Positions 2,879-7,307 of a stretch of 32,690 nucleotides of DNA are shown piece by piece. The notes under the pieces were generated by a model. That model was not told the origin of the DNA. It did not search any database and worked only from the letters and a program-made list of their open reading frames with translations. This DNA comes from a virus. A program made the translations under genes and the position numbers. The stretch spans positions 1-32,690 of IMG/VR virus record IMGVR_UViG_3300010885_052543; one strand, written 5' to 3'. The stretch's first letter is position 1; the number at the start of each line of letters is the position of its first letter.

Positions 2879-3316
2879 ATGATTGCCCCAGCCCCTCGTG
2901 CCAGGCGCAGCCCGGCCTTGCCCGTTTCCCCTGCCCCCAGGGCTGAAGGCAGGCATTCCGCGCGAGCTTGGAGCCGGATATGGGCCTTGGGGAGCAGGGC
3001 AGGGGGCTTTTCCTTTGTTTTCAATGGTGTGGCAGATGTTACGCAGCGTTGCGTTAGCTGTAACGCCTTTTCCTCTGCAATATCAAGGGCTTGCGCGCAT
3101 GTTACGCTTGTTACGCTTTCGCGCGCGCATGTAATGTCACGAGCGCCCGGGTGTGGTGCCCTTATTGCGTTCTCATACGCGCGCGCGGGCCGTAACAACC
3201 GTAACAGGCATAAAAAGAGAGATATATTCCTTATTCTGACTACGTTACTTCCGTTACGCTTGGCCGCAACCGGGCGTAACAGGCGGGAGAATAAAAACAG
3301 GGGCATTCCGGCATGA
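2879..3316 (+). CDS. Doubtful ORF covering the candidate origin
   Basis: An open frame of 145 codons from ATG 2879 (or from a TTG at 2828) ends exactly on the ATGA start of the next gene. Much of its sequence is dictated by the GTTAC repeats (repeated Val-Thr pairs such as HVTLVTL, and Arg-Asn where the repeat is inverted), and its composition is Arg/Ala-rich like a non-coding frame. No family is recognised. The neat stop/start overlap is the only argument for it. Probably non-coding. Confidence 0.2.
   Translation: MIAPAPRARRSPALPVSPAPRAEGRHSARAWSRIWALGSRAGGFSFVFNGVADVTQRCVSCNAFSSAISRACAHVTLVTLSRAHVMSRAPGCGALIAFSYARAGRNNRNRHKKRDIFLILTTLLPLRLAATGRNRRENKNRGIPA
3038..3280. other. Candidate replication origin: GTTAC iterons around an AT-rich core
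   Basis: Nine copies of GTTAC or its complement lie at 3038(+), 3060(-), 3101(+), 3110(+), 3192(-), 3201(-), 3244(+), 3253(+) and 3276(-). Three pairs have exactly 9-base spacing. The pairs 3192/3201 (minus) and 3244/3253 (plus) flank, in mirror orientation, an AT-rich stretch at 3209-3242 that stands out in GC-rich surroundings. Repeated initiator sites beside an easily melted core are the classic origin layout, and the primase and helicase genes follow within 4 kb. No recognisable initiator protein is encoded nearby. The rest of 2845-3312 holds no convincing gene. Confidence 0.5.
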
Positions 3317-3810
3317 CCGCGGAGACCCCGAAGCAGCGCCACCGAGAGCGCCAGCGCGCGGAGCGGCGCGAGATCAAGGAAGCCGCAGCAGCCGCCGCGC
3401 GGCCTGCCCTGGATCAGCCAGCGCTGGCACCGGACCTGGCGCCTCCGCCCGCGCGCATCGGCCCAGGCCGCCCAGCAGGCGCAGGGAACCGCGCAACCCG
3501 CGAATGGGTCCGCCACTTGATTGACAAGCACGGGAGCCCGCTAGAGCGCCTGCTTGAGATTGCCGGAATGGACCCCGAGCAGCTGCGCGAGAAGCTGAAA
3601 TGCGACCGGCTGGAGGTGTTTGACCGGCAGCTTACCGCCCTCAAGGAAGCGCTGCCCTATCTGCACCAGAAGCTGCCTCAGAGCATTCAGGTGGATGGCG
3701 CGCCGCTTATGGCGGTTCAGATCATGGTGAGCGGTGCGGTTGCGGCGCGCATCGGCACGCCAGCGGAAAGCCAAGCAAATCAGCATGTTATCGAGGGCGA
3801 ACCGGCATGA
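3313..3810 (+). CDS. Conserved phage protein, possible small terminase subunit
   Basis: This 165-residue protein has a basic N-terminus (residues 1-22, many Arg/Lys), a Pro/Ala linker, then GPGRPAGAGNRATREWVRHL followed by helices ending in ALKEALPYLHQKLPQ. The GRPxG/N-R-T helical start and the 'LPYLHQK' region resemble DNA-binding or small-terminase-type proteins seen in alphaproteobacterial phages, but I cannot name the family with certainty. It directly follows the candidate origin and its stop overlaps the next start (ATGA at 3807). It could be the small terminase, although the large subunit is almost 4 kb away. Confidence 0.65.
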   Translation: MTAETPKQRHRERQRAERREIKEAAAAAARPALDQPALAPDLAPPPARIGPGRPAGAGNRATREWVRHLIDKHGSPLERLLEIAGMDPEQLREKLKCDRLEVFDRQLTALKEALPYLHQKLPQSIQVDGAPLMAVQIMVSGAVAARIGTPAESQANQHVIEGEPA

Positions 3811-4435
3811 GTTTGAAGCGCGGCAGTTTGAAGGAACAGGCAAAGCCAAGGGAAACCAAGGCGTCCGGCCATGCTCGGCAGCTAATCGCCAATCAGCAGC
3901 CGGAAGCCTCGCGCGCCAGCCTGCCCGCGCCAGGCCGCGCGCCCCGCCGCGCCCGCGCGACCCCCCCGGCCCCCCTCCCCCCCCACCCCCCGCGCCCGCG
4001 CGCGCCTCCCTGTCCGCCCCTCCGCACGGGGAGCAAAGCGAAAAACCTCTCGCCCTACGGGCGGGGGATAGGTCGGAAAACTTCGCCACCCCTTTCCAGG
4101 GTGGGGAGCCGGGGGCGCTGGCGGATGGGCGGAAGCAGCGGCGGCGGTTCACGCCGGCGGAAGACGCCGCGATTTTGGCGGGGCGGCAGGCCACGCCGCG
4201 CGTGCGATTTGCGGATATCGCAGATGCGCTTGGCCGGGATGAAGTAACGGTCCGGGGCAGAGCATCGGATTTGGGCTGCGTGAAGGGCCAGCCTGTCCAC
4301 GTCAAAACCGCCAGAAAATACGCCCCAGAAACCCCAGACGCCCTCAAGCCGCGCCGCTGCCTGAAATGCCGCGAGGTATTCCAGCCGCCAAGCCAGTTCA
4401 TCTTCCGGTGCGAAATTCACAGAGGCGAGGGATGA
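3807..4435 (+). CDS. Myb-like/zinc-ribbon DNA-binding protein, apparent frameshift in a C-rich run
   Basis: The coupled start at 3807 (ATGA) opens a frame (MSLKRGSLKEQAKPRETK...) with normal G/C third positions. After the C-rich tract at 3955-4020 the convincing coding signal moves to the -1 frame, which ends at 4435. That part has a Myb/SANT-like helix set (RRRFTPAEDAAILAGR, RFADIADALGRDEVTVRGRASDL) and a short zinc-binding end (CLKC, then C and H in FRCEIH). The -1 frame is also open upstream, from ATGs at 3734 and 3785, but its third positions there are atypical. Either the C-run has lost a base in sequencing or in nature, or ribosomes shift. The Myb-like part resembles small regulators that scan DNA in phage early regions. 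The 3' end overlaps the primase start. Confidence 0.6.
4046..4104. repeat. Double-hairpin palindromic element inside the Myb-like gene
   Basis: Two GC-rich hairpins lie close together: CGCCC-TAC-GGGCG at 4051-4063 (extendable outward through G-T pairs to 4047-4067) and CCACCC, seven bases, GGGTGG at 4086-4104. Paired hairpins like this recall dispersed intergenic palindromic repeats of alphaproteobacteria. Here the element falls in coding sequence, in the linker between the N-terminal part and the Myb-like domain. Confidence 0.4.
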
Positions 4436-5487
4436 CCCAGCGCCGCCACATTCACGACATCTACACGATCATCGCCGCCTTGAAGGCGCAGATCGAACCG
4501 CTTTGCCGGGAATTGCTGCCCGGCGGCAAGCGGGATGGCCAGGAATGGCGCGCGGGCGACCTGACCGGGGCGCCGGGCCAGAGTGTGGGCGTGCGGCTGA
4601 CTGGCGACCGCGCGGGCGTATGGGCCGAGTTTAACGGCGGCGGCAGTGCCGGCGATGCGCTGGACCTGATAGCCCATTGCCGCTTTGGCGGGGACAAAGG
4701 GCAAGCGCTGCGCTGGGCCCGGCAATGGCTTGGCATGGGCGATGATGGCCACCCCTTCCGCCAGCAGGCGCCGCAAGTGCCAGCCGCCAAGCCGCGCATG
4801 GCGGAATTGGACAATGAAGGCCGCTTACTCAAGGCCCGGAAGATTTGGCTGGATGCCGTGCCCATCCTTGGCACCCCGGCGGAAGAATATCTGGCAGGCC
4901 GCGGCATTGACTTCGCGCAGCTGGGCCGCGCGCCGGGCGCGCTGCGCTTTGCGGCCAAGTGCTGGAACGCCGAGGTGAATGCCGAGCTTCCCGCCATGGT
5001 GGCGGCAATCAATCGCCGTGGGGAGCATGTGGCCACGCATCGCACCTGGCTGGCGCAGCGGGATGGCAAATGGACCAAGGCGCCCTTGCGCGCGGCCAAA
5101 AAGGTGCTGGGCAGCTACCAAGGCGGCGCCATCGCCATCTGGCGCGGCGCATCGGCGCGGCCATTGGCGCAGGCCCCGGAAAATGACGTGGTGGCGATAT
5201 GTGAGGGCATTGAGGATGCGCTGACGCTGGCGCTGCATGACCCCGGCTTGCGCGTGCTGGCAGCCATCAGCCTTTCCAATCTGGGCAATGTGCAACTGCC
5301 CGCGCAGCTGACGGACCTGACCCTGGCTTTCGATAGGGACGGCGAAAACGCGGCAGCCCGGGCAGGGCGGGAAAGGGCAGTCCGCCAATACATGGAACAA
5401 GGCCGCAGCGTGAAAGAGGTTTTTCCGCCGCCGGGCCACAAGGATTTTAACGCCTGGCACCAGGCGCTTGGGGGAAAAGCAGCGTGA
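4432..5487 (+). CDS. Toprim-domain DNA primase
   Basis: This 351-residue protein starts at 4432, chosen over a TTG at 4366 because it overlaps the previous stop and follows GAGGCGAGGG. The C-terminal half carries the Toprim fold: AICEGIEDALTLAL gives catalytic Glu258, and LTLAFDRDGE gives Asp301/Asp303 for metal binding. The N-terminal region (WRAGDLTGAPGQSVGVRL, GVWAEFNGGGSAGDALDLI) matches the zinc-binding/DUF7146-type part of phage primases but lacks the cysteine zinc ligands. It should synthesise primers at the fork together with the ATPase encoded next, whose GTG start overlaps its stop. Confidence 0.85.
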   Translation: MTQRRHIHDIYTIIAALKAQIEPLCRELLPGGKRDGQEWRAGDLTGAPGQSVGVRLTGDRAGVWAEFNGGGSAGDALDLIAHCRFGGDKGQALRWARQWLGMGDDGHPFRQQAPQVPAAKPRMAELDNEGRLLKARKIWLDAVPILGTPAEEYLAGRGIDFAQLGRAPGALRFAAKCWNAEVNAELPAMVAAINRRGEHVATHRTWLAQRDGKWTKAPLRAAKKVLGSYQGGAIAIWRGASARPLAQAPENDVVAICEGIEDALTLALHDPGLRVLAAISLSNLGNVQLPAQLTDLTLAFDRDGENAAARAGRERAVRQYMEQGRSVKEVFPPPGHKDFNAWHQALGGKAA

Positions 5488-7307
5488 CAGAACCAACACC
5501 CGCGCATCGTGATGATGGCAAGGTGACGCCGATCCGCGCGGCAGTGCGGAACGCGCCGGAAGCGCGAAAGAAAAACGGCGGTGGCCTATTGCCCGATGAT
5601 TGCCAGGTTGTGGCGCTCGGCACGGATGGGGCAACCAATTACTATTTGAACGCAGGCGGCATCTTCTGCGCCGTGGCCATCAAGCAGCATTCCAAGCATG
5701 TGGTGCGGGGGTTATTCGCGCCCAACGAAAGCTATCTGCGCAAGCATTGGCCCAAAACCAGCAAGGAAGGGCTGACCACAGATTTCCGCCCGGATGATGT
5801 AGCCGGCGCGCTAATCAATGCTTGCGCTATGGAAGGCGCTTGGAGTGGTGAAGACCGCTTGCGCGGCACGGGCGCATGGGCTGGCGAAGATGATGATTTG
5901 GTTGTGCATCTTGGGTCCACCCTGATTGCCGGCGGCGCCACGCAAAGACCCGGCGCGCGCGGGCGGTATATCTACCCGGTGCGGCCAACCCGGCCAGGCC
6001 CGGCGCGCGAATATCAGACCGATGGCCCGGATGGACCGGGCGAACAATTGCTGGCGCTGCTTTCCAAATGGCAATGGCGCCGGCCTGAAATAGATCCGAT
6101 TTTGCTGACCGGCTGGATAGCCGCCGCCTTCATTTGCGGCGCGCTGCGCTGGCGCCCGCAAGCCTGGATTGCCGGGGAACGCGGATCAGGGAAATCCACC
6201 CTAATGGGCGTGATTGCCGAGCTTCTGCATCGCGGGGATTACGCGCGGCTTGTGGCGGATGCTTCAGCCCCATCCATCCGGGCAGCGCTACAGCATGATG
6301 CCGTTCCCGTGCTGCATGATGAAGCCGAGCCATCGGAAGAAATGTCTCGCCTAAATGCCAAGGTCGAATTGATGCGCCTTGCCGCCAGTGGTGGCTTGGT
6401 GATGCGCGCCACCACGGATCAGCAAGTGATCACGCAGGCAGCCAGGTTCATGGGCTTGTTCGCTTCCGTGCTGCGCCCGCCGCTGAAAGCGCAGGATGCC
6501 AGCCGCATCATCTTCCTGGACATGAAGCGCGTCACCACAGGTCGCCCGCCTTTGGTGACGGAAGATGAATTGCAAACGCTGGGCAAGCGCATCTTCCGGC
6601 GGATGATGGACCGCTGGCATGCGTTCCAGGAAGAATTGCCGATCTGGCGCGATAGCCTGATGACCGCGGGGATGGATGCGCGCCAGGCGGACCAATTCGG
6701 CACGTTGCTGGCAGTGCAAGACGTGCTGCGCCATGACGCGCCAGCCGATAGCGACACGCGGGCAGAAATGGTGGCGCGCATGGTGGACGCCACGCGCAGC
6801 GAACGCGCCGAGGAACGCCCGGAATGGCGCTGGTGCCTGGATCACCTGACAAGCATGATGTGCCAGGGCTTCAAATCTGGCGAGCAGCGCGCCATCGGCA
6901 CGGTGATTGCCGTTGCCGCAGGCCGCGCGGTTTTGCAGGACACGGACACGGGCGAGCCGCGCCGCCCCTTTCGCGGTGAACGCGATGACGCCAACCGCGT
7001 GCTGCAAGCGATTGGGCTGCGCTTTCATCCGATGAAAGTCAACGACCGCCCGCTGGAAGACCCGGCCACCAAAAACCCGCTTGGCTGGCTGGCCGTGGCC
7101 AATAGCCATGCAGGCTTGGCGCAGATTTTCAGGGACACGCATTGGAAGCCGCGCAGCGGTGCCGCCGGCGGCTGGAAAAGCGCGCTCGAAAGTGCGGAGG
7201 GCGCCAGCACAGGCAGCACCTTGCGCTTTGGCGGCGTGACGGCGCGATGCGCGCTGATCCCGGTGGAATTGGCTTTGGATGGTGAGGGGAATGAGAATGG
7301 CGAGTAA
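5484..7307 (+). CDS. Helicase-like ATPase of the replication module (DUF927/DUF3987-like)
   Basis: This 607-residue protein starts with GTG inside the primase stop codon (GTGA). Walker A is GERGSGKST (231-239) and a Walker-B-like strand is VLHDEAE (276-282); about 80 residues later comes SRIIFLDM. The N-terminal 200 residues have the layout of DUF927-type proteins. Placed right after a Toprim primase, it is most likely the replicative helicase or the helicase half of a split primase-helicase. The C-terminal third (residues 430-600) shows no motif I can name. Confidence 0.75.
   Translation: MTEPTPAHRDDGKVTPIRAAVRNAPEARKKNGGGLLPDDCQVVALGTDGATNYYLNAGGIFCAVAIKQHSKHVVRGLFAPNESYLRKHWPKTSKEGLTTDFRPDDVAGALINACAMEGAWSGEDRLRGTGAWAGEDDDLVVHLGSTLIAGGATQRPGARGRYIYPVRPTRPGPAREYQTDGPDGPGEQLLALLSKWQWRRPEIDPILLTGWIAAAFICGALRWRPQAWIAGERGSGKSTLMGVIAELLHRGDYARLVADASAPSIRAALQHDAVPVLHDEAEPSEEMSRLNAKVELMRLAASGGLVMRATTDQQVITQAARFMGLFASVLRPPLKAQDASRIIFLDMKRVTTGRPPLVTEDELQTLGKRIFRRMMDRWHAFQEELPIWRDSLMTAGMDARQADQFGTLLAVQDVLRHDAPADSDTRAEMVARMVDATRSERAEERPEWRWCLDHLTSMMCQGFKSGEQRAIGTVIAVAAGRAVLQDTDTGEPRRPFRGERDDANRVLQAIGLRFHPMKVNDRPLEDPATKNPLGWLAVANSHAGLAQIFRDTHWKPRSGAAGGWKSALESAEGASTGSTLRFGGVTARCALIPVELALDGEGNENGE

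Follow-up and report, generated by a model that had tools for sequence, protein, structure and literature searches.

A GTTAC iteron array as the candidate replication origin of a full-size phage with a putative self-loading helicase

The cluster of GTTAC sites at positions 3038 to 3280 of the window, which is the whole stretch of 32,690 nucleotides analysed here (a 32.7-kb IMG/VR virus entry classed as linear), is most probably a replication origin of the self-loading-helicase type, and the candidate reader of its sites is the 607-aa helicase of the phage itself. An origin at this place, without a recognisable initiator gene, had been proposed in an earlier note. The origin part of that proposal was well supported by the adjacency of similar elements to helicases in several families, by the match with the origins of PICIs and SaPIs, and by a concerted switch of the sites between sister phages. 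The missing-initiator part was not supported, and the best candidate initiator was the helicase encoded at 5484-7307, with weak structural hits to Cch, D5/E5 and SaPIbov1 Rep.

The left side of the array was occupied by two genes of the HTH repressor type and one Cro-like gene. On the right, P165, a Myb-like/zinc-ribbon-like protein, a Toprim primase, the 607-aa AAA helicase, the large terminase and the major head protein were encoded, and more virion and tail genes were found further right; in total, terminase, major head, tail, virion and holin proteins were assigned in the window. The features of the array and of the adjoining replication genes were as follows.

3038-3042, plus strand: single iteron GTTAC, GAAAC in sister phages
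3060-3064, minus strand: single iteron, GTAAC on the plus strand
3101-3114, plus strand: iteron pair 1, 9-bp period, GTTACGCTTGTTAC
3115-3191, no strand: core 1, the GC-rich interval that separates pair 1 from the inverted pair 2, conserved in phages of either iteron type
3192-3205, minus strand: iteron pair 2, inverted, 9-bp period
3206-3243, no strand: AT-rich interval (68% AT), candidate melting site, conserved in relatives
3244-3257, plus strand: iteron pair 3, 9-bp period, GTTACTTCCGTTAC
3266-3270, minus strand: tenth site, degenerate, with GCAAC in the window sequence, GTAAC in L009 and GTTTC in the GAAAC group
3276-3280, minus strand: single iteron
3313-3810, plus strand: P165, adjoining the array on its right, a family-specific protein without known function
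3807-4435, plus strand: Myb-like DNA-binding and zinc-ribbon-like protein, frame broken in the window
4366-5487, plus strand: Toprim primase (DUF7146, Toprim_3)
5484-7307, plus strand: 607-aa AAA helicase of the phrog_21086 family, proposed self-loading initiator

No terminase match was obtained for P165 in domain and family scans, and neither P165 nor the Myb-like protein had a match among 50,697 phage records. The frame break in the Myb-like gene is likely an assembly or homopolymer error, because its poly-C tract was C8 in the window and C9 in all five relatives. The C-rich tract at 3940-4010, with runs of 6-9 C and a G-quadruplex-prone opposite strand, was near-identical DNA in GTTAC and GAAAC phages. 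The two HTH repressor-like genes at 1764-2527 were tandem and related (61% identical over 95 aa); two such genes were present in the window and L009, and one in L003, L004 and L007. In the Cro/YdaS-like gene (2551-2844), the N-terminal half had diverged between the window and L003/L004 and the 3' half was near-identical, a pattern that suggests recombination inside the gene.

The nine GTTAC/GTAAC copies reported previously were all confirmed in the window sequence, starting at 3038 (+), 3060 (-), 3101 (+), 3110 (+), 3192 (-), 3201 (-), 3244 (+), 3253 (+) and 3276 (-), and so were the three exact 9-bp pairs, 3101/3110, 3192/3201 and 3244/3253. Counted over the genome and compared with resampled sequence, the cluster was far above chance: the whole window contained 21 GTTAC sites against 11.2-11.4 expected, nine of them within 243 bp, while the densest 243 bp in 500 Markov resamples held at most three sites and the resamples at most one 9-bp pair, compared with three observed. 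Among the 5-mers of the window, GTTAC also showed the strongest local clustering, and a k-mer array scan of the whole window ranked the 3038-3280 array first and returned no comparable array at the 3' end of the helicase. The open reading frames crossing the array look spurious, in agreement with the earlier note, because relatives keep the spacing of the sites while the sequence between them changes with indels. The minimum of the GC skew, at 4058, was near the array but not at it, and when the region was folded as a single DNA strand the result did not exceed that of shuffled sequence (z -0.72).

The pairs at 3192/3201 and 3244/3253 mirrored each other, as described before, around an AT-rich core at 3206-3243 (68% AT) in a genome of about 61% GC. 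The single core of that description was refined here to two intervals separating the pairs, 3115-3191 and 3206-3243. Core 1 contained two 14-base alternating purine-pyrimidine tracts, CGCGCGCGCATGTA and CATACGCGCGCGCG. Of 32 non-redundant cores, 15 contained an alternating run that was unusually long relative to their own contig (combined P by Fisher's method about 4e-14). Other cores are AT-rich, and purine-pyrimidine alternation as a rule for every core was discarded as too strong a claim. Z-DNA-prone alternating tracts between inverted pairs (e.g. in L017, L044 and L057) were seen mainly in GC-rich phages.

The GTTAC array was kept in the related phages L003, L004 and L009, with two sites decayed to GTTGC in L004. 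In L005, L007 and L013, GAAAC was present at every homologous site with identical spacing, and the helicases of L005 and L007 were 84% identical to that of the window. When the ten homologous iterons were aligned, fixed differences between the two groups occupied 19 of 20 central bases and none of the 30 outer bases, compared with 39 of 278 columns elsewhere in the array alignment (P=3.5e-14). Since the flanks and core tracts remain alignable, the GTTAC/GAAAC difference appears to have arisen site by site and not by import of a foreign block. Because all ten homologous sites are GAAAC in the sisters, with fixed differences at 19 of the 20 central positions, the sites are read here as selected as a set and recognised by something phage-encoded.

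The fixed differences of the helicase between the GTTAC and GAAAC groups were concentrated in the C-terminal part, with 54 of 257 positions against 28 of 350 elsewhere (P=6e-6). The top Foldseek hits of the window helicase were SCCmec Cch, MPXV E5/D5, NrS-1 and SaPIbov1 Rep, all weak, with a best E of 0.03 and a Z of 6.3, which is within the possibly non-specific range. These fold matches are taken as weak support because the AlphaFold model was poor (mean pLDDT 57), and poor in the ATPase part. No named initiator family was assigned to the helicase in Pfam or NCBIfam, and a profile search of the PDB, started from the aligned helicases, found nothing significant. SaPI Rep and Cch2, as reported in PMC7581432, bind short iterons directly downstream of their own genes via the C-terminal domain. 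Based on this published binding, the fold hits and the C-terminal fixed differences, the 607-aa helicase is proposed to read the iterons and to load itself, and is likely the initiator of the window. According to this model, the helicase would recognise the TGTTACG units via its C-terminal domain, and the side-by-side 9-bp pairs on both flanks would assemble helicase oligomers. Opening of the AT-rich interval (3206-3243), of the alternating tract (3115-3191) or of both would follow, the helicase would load in both directions, and the Toprim primase would subsequently prime.

The array might instead be an origin or operator bound by the Myb-like/zinc protein (3807-4435) and not by the helicase, a reading that we consider unlikely. 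Its proposed recognition helix was DEVTVRGRASDLG in GTTAC phages versus GWSVVRRQATRLG and SSSVVRRQAVRLG in GAAAC phages and was conserved among the GTTAC phages; the zinc part was nearly unchanged between groups, and the protein as a whole diverged between the two groups even more strongly than the helicase. However, no homologue was found in the 19 other element-bearing records tested, so the protein cannot explain the shared GTTAC element, and in the window itself the reading frame of its gene is broken, possibly by a sequencing error. The earlier suggestion of this protein as the binder is thus limited to the small phage family of the window, in which it is possible.

The four-site layout was searched for in viral contigs of IMG/VR with the pattern GTTACGNNNGTTAC-N55-85-GTAACNNNCGTAAC. 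A total of 44 loci of 41-71% GC were obtained, compared with two for the reversed-pattern control. The GAAAC version gave four loci, and the GTGAC and GTTACA versions gave at least 120 loci each, so the element type is far commoner than sampled. A replicative helicase was encoded in 30 of 43 GTTAC records (DUF5906 in 23 and phrog_21086 in 7), and the distance between the element and the DUF5906 domain was mostly 360-760 bp, with the element usually 3' of the domain. A DUF5906-type helicase (model built here) was present in 89 of 120 loci of the GTGAC set, and 80 of 90 helicase loci had the element -200 to +400 bp from the helicase 3' end, both counted among the matches listed; in the GTTACA set, again among the matches listed, the primase-helicase cluster ended a median of 68 bp from the element. 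The tested primase-helicases of the GTTACA set were Toprim-AAA_25, and a linked member of the GTGAC set was VapE-like. Among Pseudomonadota genomes, the GTTAC element was present in 1 of 398, about 450 bp from a DUF5906 gene. Two further candidates were set aside: L028 matched the four sites only via a repetitive collagen-like gene and was an artefact, and L014, a Bradyrhizobiaceae MAG locus with a distant primase, had neither such a helicase nor an array. No description of a GTTAC phage origin was found in the open-licence literature. In L016 (7356-7424), L221 (5628-5682) and L250 (5221-5275), the GTTAC element adjoined a terminase small-subunit-like gene; no initiator helicase was found near the element in these and other loci, and the phages with this neighbour had a family A DNA polymerase or no recognisable initiator.

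Arrays were also sought without any motif at 35 helicase loci in bacterial genomes, chosen regardless of terminase, by comparing 6-mer arrays with 20 shuffles of each locus. In 25 of the 35 loci a 6-mer array exceeded the maximum of the shuffles, with a spacing of 9 bp at 11 loci and of 8 bp at 7 loci, and nearly all arrays were beyond the 3' side of the helicase domain. The array sequences differed from each other (GGTAAC, TGGCAC, TGTGCA, CTAGGA, ACGTCC, TCCAAC, TGAGAC and others). Since this motif-free scan gave arrays of many sequences, the array appears to be a property of the helicase replicon, in which GTTAC is one of many codes. GTTAC and GTGAC were found beside unrelated helicases more often than a free choice of code would suggest. 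The phrog_21086-family helicases of bacterial genomes and a human gut phage (L094-L098 and L061) were accompanied by GTTAC, GAGAC, GTGAC, GACAC or TCCAAC arrays, and most of these units fit GNNAC.

A packaging site (pac/cos), with the terminase small subunit as its binder, has to be weighed as well, since the element of some relatives adjoins a gene for such a subunit. The element adjoined a small-subunit-like gene in 28 clustered loci (the L282/L221/L016 group), and in several DUF5906 loci the large terminase subunit was 1.7-2.5 kb away. These small-subunit-like neighbours were restricted to another phage group than that of the window, in which P165 adjoins the array and the large terminase is 4.4 kb from it. 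In most loci, by contrast, the constant neighbour of the element was the 3' end of the helicase, and iteron arrays accompanied helicases in bacterial genomes picked regardless of terminase. For the array of the window a packaging role is therefore judged improbable, and in the phages with the small-subunit-like neighbour the element may be either an origin or a packaging site.

That the array is instead a set of operators, through which the Cro-like protein or the two HTH proteins would act as phage repressors of the early operon, is very improbable. Three HTH regulators were encoded within 1.3 kb and a promoter-like site overlapped 3201-3228, but the Cro-like and HTH proteins differed strongly between the window and L003/L004 while the GTTAC sites were unchanged, and what the other element-bearing phages had in common was helicases and not HTH/Cro-like regulators. 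Binding by a host protein, which the earlier note had also considered and which the presence of the GTTAC unit beside unrelated helicases in phages of 41-71% GC could favour, is the least credible of all, because close sister phages (84% helicase identity) have GAAAC at every homologous site, and the motif-free helicase loci use many different 6-mers.

The preferred reading, an origin read by the phage's own helicase, was compared with known replication systems. The alpha protein of satellite phage P4 is a helicase with its own origin-binding activity and a two-part origin (ori/crr), and it differs from the window in its iteron sequence and in that crr is separate and distant. In phage lambda, the iterons beside an AT-rich region lie inside the O initiator gene, whereas the window array is intergenic and no O-type protein was detected among the window replication genes scanned. 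SCCmec Cch, the top Foldseek hit of the window helicase, is a remote and weakly supported match. According to PMC7581432, Cch2 depends on a 5-nt iteron (AAGTG) adjoining its gene, and the putative SCCmec origin has only three direct iterons, unlike the window. The initiator DNA-binding domain and the iterons of the V. cholerae PLE RepA/ori system covary between close relatives (PMC8263062), though with a RepA_N initiator and semi-palindromic iterons of about 30 bp.

The closest resemblance was to PICI/SaPI origins. Every PICI origin has an AT-rich region with a set of iterons on either side (PMC6092414). This layout is common to PICIs, SaPIs and the window, as are a helicase-type initiator, putative in the window, and an iteron sequence that varies between elements while the layout is kept (PMC6092414; Ubeda et al., as cited in PMC7581432). 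In PICIs and SaPIs the array is just 3' of the initiator gene, and most other helicase-bearing element loci found here share this position, whereas in the family of the window the helicase gene lies 2.2 kb downstream of the end of the array, which is not at the 3' end of that gene. In addition, a PICI is a satellite without most structural genes and the window is a full-size phage genome that has them; an alternating purine-pyrimidine core in many of the elements and an iteron type that differs between sister phages are further features that set the present elements apart. The window would thus be a full-size phage with a PICI/SaPI-type origin that lies away from its helicase and whose iteron specificity differs between sisters.

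More tentatively, and as a possibility that we rate below even chances, the two-sided iteron origin with a period of about 9 bp could be a general replicon of full-size phages, whose 5-6-bp code is rewritten as a whole between sisters and in which GT(T/G)AC is frequent via a shared, swappable DNA-binding domain or a common partner. As part of this same tentative reading, it would serve the unrelated helicase classes DUF5906/D5, VapE-like, Toprim-AAA_25 and Cch-like phrog_21086. In the published account this origin layout is limited to phage satellites (PICIs), and here it appears common in full-size phages. The layout offers a simple sequence rule for locating phage origins and pairing them with their initiators. 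The GTTAC and GAAAC sisters would represent a natural experiment in the joint change of specificity of an initiator and its roughly ten binding sites. Possible reasons for such a change include escape from origin-targeting nucleases or incompatibility.
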